Shown here: one piece after another, positions 2,290 through 3,489 of the stretch | Layout of the letters: every line of letters begins with the position of its first letter | Position numbering within the stretch: position 1 is the first letter of the stretch | Source of the DNA: Deltaproteobacteria bacterium | GTDB lineage: Bacteria > Myxococcota > XYA12-FULL-58-9 | Length of the DNA: 64,000 nt | Assembly: GCA_016218825.1 (NCBI GenBank) | Contig: JACRCV010000075.1 | Coordinates: 62,001-126,000 of the forward strand | Reading direction: 5' to 3' | Notes under the pieces: model-generated | What the model saw: only the letters and a program-made list of their open reading frames with translations | Databases searched by the model: none | What the model was told of the DNA's origin: nothing | Position numbers and translations under genes: made by a program

Positions 2290-3489
2290 ATGGCCAAGGA
2301 AAAATTCAACCGCAACAAGCCGCACGTCAACGTCGGCACCATCGGCCACGTCGATCACGGCAAGACCACGCTGACCGCGGCCTTGACCAAGATCTCCGAG
2401 GAGATGGGCCTCGCGAAGTTCGTCTCCTACGACCAGGTGGCGAAGGCTTCGGAGTCGCAAGGGCGCCGCGATCCGACCAAGATCCTGACGATCGCGACCT
2501 CGCACGTCGAGTACCAGACCGAGAAGCGCCACTACGCCCACGTCGACTGCCCCGGACACGCCGACTACGTCAAGAACATGATCACCGGCGCGGCGCAGAT
2601 GGACGGCGCGATCCTGGTGGTGTCGGCGGCCGACGGCCCGATGCCGCAGACCCGCGAGCACGTGCTCCTCGCCCGTCAGGTCAACGTGCCGCATATTGTC
2701 GTGTTCTTGAACAAGATCGACGTCGTCGACGACCCGGAGCTCTTGGACCTGGTGGAGCTCGAGGTCCGCGACCTCTTGAAGGAGTACAAGTTCCCGGGCG
2801 ACACCACGCCGGTCATCCGCGGCTCGGCGTCGAAGGCTATTGCCGGTGACGAGAAGTCGAAGCAGGCGATCAAGGACTTGATGAAGGCGCTCGACGAGCA
2901 CGTGCCGGAGCCGGTGCGGATCACCGACAAGCCGTTCTTGATGCCGGTCGAAGACGTGTTCTCGATCTCGGGGCGTGGCACGGTGGTGACGGGTCGCATC
3001 GATCGCGGCGTCATCCGCACCGGCGACGAGGTGGAGATCATCGGCCTGCAAGACACCATCAAGACGGTGGTGACCGGCGTCGAGATGTTCCGCAAGATCC
3101 TCGACTTCGGGCAGGCGGGGGACAACGTCGGTTGTCTGCTGCGCGGCACCAAGAAGGAAGAGGTGCAGCGCGGCCAGGTGCTGGCGAAGCCGGGGACGAT
3201 CACGCCGCACAAGAAGTTCAAGTGCGAGGTGTACGTGTTGACGAAGGAAGAGGGCGGTCGGCACACGCCGTTCTTCTCGAATTATCGGCCGCAGTTCTAC
3301 TTCCGGACGACGGACGTGACCGGGAGCGTGAAGCTGCCGCAGGGCGTGGAGATGGTGATGCCGGGAGACAACGTGACGATGGAAGTGGAGCTGATCACGG
3401 CCATCGCGATGGAGAAGGAGCTGCGCTTCGCCGTCCGCGAAGGTGGCCGTACGGTCGGCGCCGGCGTCGTGGCCGAGATTCTGGAGTAG
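2290..3489 (+). CDS. tuf: elongation factor Tu (atypical switch I)
   Basis: [32 protein letters not shown]..., [50 protein letters not shown] ribosome-binding site before ATG 2290. Confidence 0.97.

Follow-up and report, generated by a model that had tools for sequence, protein, structure and literature searches.

Canonical elongation factor Tu, for which E. coli K-12 EF-Tu (TufA) was our reference in comparing loops, has an aspartate at position 50 that is part of the Mg2+ second shell. In translational GTPases a monovalent cation is bound by the P-loop aspartate together with the main chain of a switch I glycine (PMC4342817, PMC4509514); EF-Tu is listed as K+-dependent (PMC6310460), and the cation contributes little to catalysis (PMC4509514). 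Within switch I of the E. coli protein, the Lit protease cuts between Gly59 and Ile60 (PMC3014915). A second, diverged form of EF-Tu has been described in bacteria, the actEF-Tu2 or Streptomyces tuf3-type proteins (PMC4342817), which are extra paralogues of actinomycetes.

Our window, the whole 64,000-nucleotide stretch of DNA that was analysed, contains a full-length tufA reading frame that starts with ATG at 2290 and lies in the gene order fusA-tuf-rpsJ, the str operon position of EF-Tu (Table 1). The encoded protein matches the EF-Tu profile TIGR00485 over positions 1-394 with 704.2 bits (curated cut-off, 522.4). At 68% overall identity, it shares with E. coli EF-Tu the length, the domains and the operon place, as well as the P-loop, DCPGH and NKxD motifs, the catalytic His84 and the place of switch I Thr61. 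Asp50 and the RGITI effector signature are absent. Because this signature belongs to most members but is unnecessary for the profile match, its absence signals a variant within EF-Tu rather than a non-member; the predicted function here is GTP-dependent delivery of aminoacyl-tRNA. The first-pass annotation had read the gene as a genuine, undecayed EF-Tu whose switch I is expanded and non-canonical, a reading borne out by the 399-residue open frame, the profile score and the intact motifs.

Table 1. Features of the tuf region, with positions in the window
Feature	Positions	Strand	Remarks
fusA (EF-G), str operon neighbour	186..2264	+	served as organismal control gene
tufA, EF-Tu, 399 aa, type A switch I	2290..3489	+	TIGR00485 704 bits, cut-off 522.4; fusA/rpsJ neighbours
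Switch I/effector loop, residues 47-75	2428..2514	+	discrete form kept in many phyla
Ala51, opposite E. coli Asp50	2440..2442	+	Ala in 59/59 type A and 13/13 type B; Asp in 29/29 canonical
G-R-R, residues 58-60	2461..2469	+	Arg60 opposite Gly59 of canonical RGITI (MAFFT)
D-P-T-K-I insertion (residues 61-65), five residues absent from canonical EF-Tu	2470..2484	+	MAFFT alignment
Thr67, equivalent to E. coli Thr61; preceding Leu66 equivalent to Ile60 of the hydrophobic gate	2488..2490	+	Thr invariant in 101/101 aligned
rpsJ (S10)	3498..3805	+	S10 ribosomal-protein operon starts here

Compared with E. coli EF-Tu, switch I of the window is five residues longer and carries the replacements Asp50 to Ala, Pro53 to Ser, Glu55 to Ser, Ala57 to Gly, Gly59 to Arg and Ile60 to Leu, with Thr61 and Ile62 retained. 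MAFFT places the DPTKI insertion after the Arg60/Gly59 column; when the alignment is anchored C-terminally, R58-G59 of E. coli stand opposite K-I of the window. The absence of RGITI holds under either alignment, and the Gly before I/L-T-I is missing in both. These alignments agree with the initial claims of about five extra residues, a lost RGITI and an aligned Mg/GTP-coordinating Thr (Thr61 as Thr67). The claim that RG lies opposite KI is reproduced by C-terminal anchoring but not by MAFFT.

We call this loop type A (consensus [VI]AKAS..QGRR[DN]xxKI[LM]TI). Membership was defined by the pattern [VI]AK[AG]x..x.x[GF]RR[DN]xxKIxT[IV] with 21 residues from Tyr to Thr, to which the window EF-Tu conforms. 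A planctomycete-type form, type B, was defined by an AKGGTxRD loop with 18 residues from Tyr to Thr. Type B shares with the window the change of Asp50 to Ala, the loss of RG and an R[DS]xxK stretch ahead of two hydrophobic residues and T-I. However, its loop is three residues shorter and has GGT where the window has ASES-QG; the window loop, with 21 residues and ASESQGRR, falls outside the type B pattern, and switch I identity between the two types is only about 50%. The altered planctomycete switch I mentioned in the first-pass annotation does exist, but as this second, shorter form rather than as the loop of the window; type A is itself also present in some planctomycetes. Type A resembles actEF-Tu2 and the tuf3-type proteins in being a divergent bacterial EF-Tu form alongside the usual one. 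Unlike those extra paralogues, it serves as the principal EF-Tu, encoded in the str operon, and usually occupies both readable tuf copies.

The forms are sharply separated among 101 aligned EF-Tu sequences (59 type A, 13 type B and 29 canonical). Between type A sequences of different phyla, identity is 85.6% in switch I versus 72.8% elsewhere; between type A and canonical sequences of the same phylum it is 42.7% in switch I versus 74.9% elsewhere. Nine columns perfectly separate alternative from canonical sequences, all of them within switch I, and the best diagnostic column outside it reaches 0.66 of a possible 0.86 bits. The Asp50 position is Ala in all 72 alternatives and Asp in all 29 canonical sequences; Thr61, Asp80 and His84 never vary across the set. 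Judged from these alignments, the switch I loop behaves as a single module.

Several loci with unusual tuf genes were encountered during this survey. L089, on a 7.5 kb contig (G101:C30), has a mosaic tuf whose first ~70 residues are planctomycete-like with a type B loop and whose remainder is Myxococcus-like, the product of either recombination or a chimeric assembly. L035 (G025) has the loop RGVTINVHHTEYE, yet its EF-Tu groups among type A once switch I is masked; regain or exchange of a canonical loop is possible there. Two Planctomycetota encode second, divergent EF-Tu-like proteins of 56-61% identity (L305 in G347 and L301 in G319), one with the loop variant SYEQVTAGGVRRDKNKTVTIHLSHAEY. 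A divergent EF-Tu paralogue with a canonical loop and 54% identity (L044, G027:C2:3724-4899) adjoins the normal tuf of the same genome. At L046 (G041:C207) the tuf frame is broken just before switch I, with residues 1-45 in another frame, probably through an assembly error.

All readable tuf genes of the window's genus and order are type A. In its phylum, where loop profile scores separated type A (at least 107 bits) from all others (at most 86 bits), 26 of 136 scorable genomes are type A, and the loci read at or below 86 bits are either canonical RGITI or type B (type B at L037 and L085-L089). A scan of named genomes gave more than 577 type A matches, the best 80 of which come from Verrucomicrobiota, Lentisphaerota, Kiritimatiellota, Gemmatimonadota, Acidobacteriota, Nitrospirota, Planctomycetota, Firestonebacteria and Alphaproteobacteria (chiefly Hyphomicrobium). 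In sampled genomes, with denominators limited by assemblies that break in tuf, type A was found in 35 of 54 Gemmatimonadota, 20 of 78 Acidobacteriota and 10 of 109 Planctomycetota with a match (the last sample also having many type B and some canonical loops). Eighteen of 20 named type A genomes show no additional tuf-like gene of another form; the other two add a canonical tuf (G213) and a degenerate paralogue (G198). Type A is a patchy, widespread alternative form in about ten phyla. The loop had initially been suspected to be a rare variant, an idea that does not survive, since every readable tuf of the order carries it and it is common in several phyla. Nor is it an anomaly of this one genome: the motif is ordinary across the close clade, an outcome that the first-pass annotation had itself named as refuting its claim, and what stands is a feature of the clade.

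The genome of the window has both classical tuf places. One contig (C16) stops ~80 bases into a tuf preceded by tRNA-Thr-Tyr-Gly-Thr, and another (C91) opens with the final 55 codons of a tuf, after which come tRNA-Trp, secE, nusG, rplK and rplA. The last codons of the second tuf show synonymous differences only, and its middle, including switch I, is unassembled. A second copy of canonical form is unlikely, given that the contig breaks coincide with the onset of identity between the copies and that a search of this genome turned up no separate canonical loop. Both readable copies are type A in the related genomes G024 (L015/L040), G005 (L049/L050) and G002 (L051/L052, partial).

Some genomes carry both forms. 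Three Acidobacteriota have a type A tuf in the str operon (tufA) and a canonical tufB (L290/L291, L299/L297 and L300/L298), the latter located between tRNA-Thr and tRNA-Trp, beside nusG-rplK-rplA-rplL-rpoB. At least two of these genomes are metagenome bins; several share the arrangement, and each of the two loci is a core operon. In a fourth genome (L288/L289) the second copy encodes a degenerate EF-Tu without Thr61. This paralogue (L289:7926-9122, G198) has 57% identity and sits in the tufB position, with an intact type A tufA elsewhere; decay or repurposing of a canonical copy is possible.

We consider it probable that the window EF-Tu is an ordinary working tufA product with an ancient alternative switch I, which has replaced the canonical loop as a unit in many lineages across about ten phyla. 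When the window gene was compared with 75 named type A genes, codon agreement at sites of identical amino acid was 0.534 in switch I and 0.593 elsewhere. As switch I shows no excess of codon identity, the likeness appears old and held by selection and not freshly transferred, which also rules against recent segmental gene transfer. The loop differs from that of a congener by nine synonymous and three amino-acid codon changes, a pattern of purifying selection. In a quick tree of tuf with switch I masked, canonical sequences fall nearly on one side, and on the same 40 taxa the type A trait needs two changes on the masked tuf tree versus six on the EF-G tree, so that the trait follows the gene more than the organism.

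Such a patchy distribution is best accounted for by an old split between tuf copies, with differential loss and/or the exchange of entire tuf genes afterwards, and the Acidobacteriota with a type A tufA and a canonical tufB illustrate this step. Ancient duplication with loss and gene transfer are both possible routes. Only tentatively do we extend this to a scheme in which bacterial EF-Tu comes in two or three discrete switch I forms of ancient origin, descended from diverged tufA and tufB copies; the alternatives, which lack Asp50 and the switch I Gly of the monovalent-cation site, would differ in how they treat the Mg2+/K+ site, and in some Acidobacteriota both forms would operate together.

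The strongest competing explanation, which we regard as doubtful, is that recent lateral transfer of the whole tuf, or of its 5' segment, spread type A between phyla and into the window's own lineage. Type A does form an island in the Hyphomicrobium order (4 of 89 scorable genomes), with canonical loops at all 29 loci read in a class-wide alphaproteobacterial sample (L199-L227); Hyphomicrobium EF-G groups with Alphaproteobacteria at 100, and its tuf lies elsewhere in the quick tree. The mosaic appearance of L089 points the same way. However, AU tests on masked tuf did not reject the unity of type A and canonical Alphaproteobacteria (p 0.53) or that of Acidobacteriota (p 0.21), nor did an AU test on tuf reject a single canonical clade (p 0.22). 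The tuf data are weak, and these tests gave no proof of whole-gene transfer; segment-wise or independent change within lineages could also have occurred. The lateral transfer raised in the first-pass annotation is in this sense only a possibility. The unraised codon identity in switch I also speaks against recent transfer, and the universality of type A among readable tuf genes of the window's order implies no recent arrival there.

Independent convergence, in which several lineages separately rebuilt switch I into the same loop, seems improbable. It would fit the failure of AU tests to reject phylum monophyly, and intermediate-looking loops exist (AKADAKTFRRDATKILTV and AKGGTRRSDSKIITIAV), but 31-residue loops that are near-identical across phyla (31/31 with Lentisphaera, L092) would be hard to reach repeatedly, and the tuf tree of 40 taxa needs only two changes. 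We give less credence still to selection of the loop as an escape from an agent that targets EF-Tu, either the Lit protease or an EF-Tu antibiotic. The Gly59-Ile60 bond is absent in type A, and the only two of 195 genomes with the Lit family PF10463 lie in mainly canonical families (EF-Tu of G020 read as canonical, that of G128 unread). Two genomes are far too few, however, and we rejected Lit as the selective agent on this count; the window genome has no Lit, about four-fifths of the phylum's scorable genomes are not type A anyway, and nine coordinated columns exceed what a change of cleavage site needs. Errors of sequencing or assembly, and decay of the copy, can practically be dismissed: the assembly of this genome breaks within the second tuf (end of C16, start of C91), but the frame is open, the selection pattern and operon context are those of a working gene, and the same loop read in independent genomes of the same genus (L009), the same order (L010-L012) and many phyla (L092-L171) excludes chance and any read error hiding an RGITI, as the first-pass annotation had expected in holding that the copy is not decayed.

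How the loop would work can be approached from the residues that it keeps and lacks. With Thr67 (Thr61) and Leu66 of the hydrophobic gate in place, switch I should still become ordered upon GTP binding and His84 should still catalyse hydrolysis. No type A member seen has Asp50 or the Gly59 of switch I; a basic GRRDxTK segment is present instead and may replace contacts. As types A and B both lack Asp50 and Gly, a changed cation site is expected. The most likely mechanistic consequence would be an altered Mg2+/K+ site, and the rebuilt Mg2+/monovalent-cation environment could alter nucleotide affinity, K+ dependence or ribosome contact. The GTPase cycle or the response to antibiotics might differ too, as the first-pass annotation suggested. 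One caveat is that Gly59 contributes its carbonyl through the main chain, and another residue in its place might in principle still bind the cation. An AlphaFold2 model has the EF-Tu fold in its closed form (pLDDT 85.5), and its best matches among solved structures are the closed, GTP-like EF-Tu structures 1exm, 1ob2 and 1eft (TM ~0.88-0.91). Its loop geometry was set aside, because switch I pLDDT is ~39-52. EF-Ts type was also discarded as a correlate: type A is accompanied by short EF-Ts in G000 and by long EF-Ts in G024 and G033, and canonical loops likewise occur with either length. Across the phylum, a short EF-Ts that lacks ~80 middle residues, found in the window genome among others, and a long form are mixed within families.

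The type A form is apparently undescribed. It occurs in none of the 58 distinct EF-Tu-like chains matched in the PDB, and we found no description of it among 5.39 million open-access papers; an earlier mention, at least of the planctomycete form, is possible in subscription literature. Jenkins and Fuerst are said to have treated planctomycete EF-Tu in 2001 (cited in PMC3444138) and may mention that form.

EF-Tu switch I has been treated as near-invariant, and models of decoding that invoke the Mg2+ shell, the monovalent cation, the hydrophobic gate and effector contacts rest on one loop sequence. A natural, widespread loop that keeps Thr61 without Asp50 or Gly59 makes these models testable with existing proteins, and those Acidobacteriota with both forms allow a comparison within one cell. 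Results tied to RGITI, such as Lit cleavage at Gly59-Ile60, may fail to carry over to whole lineages.
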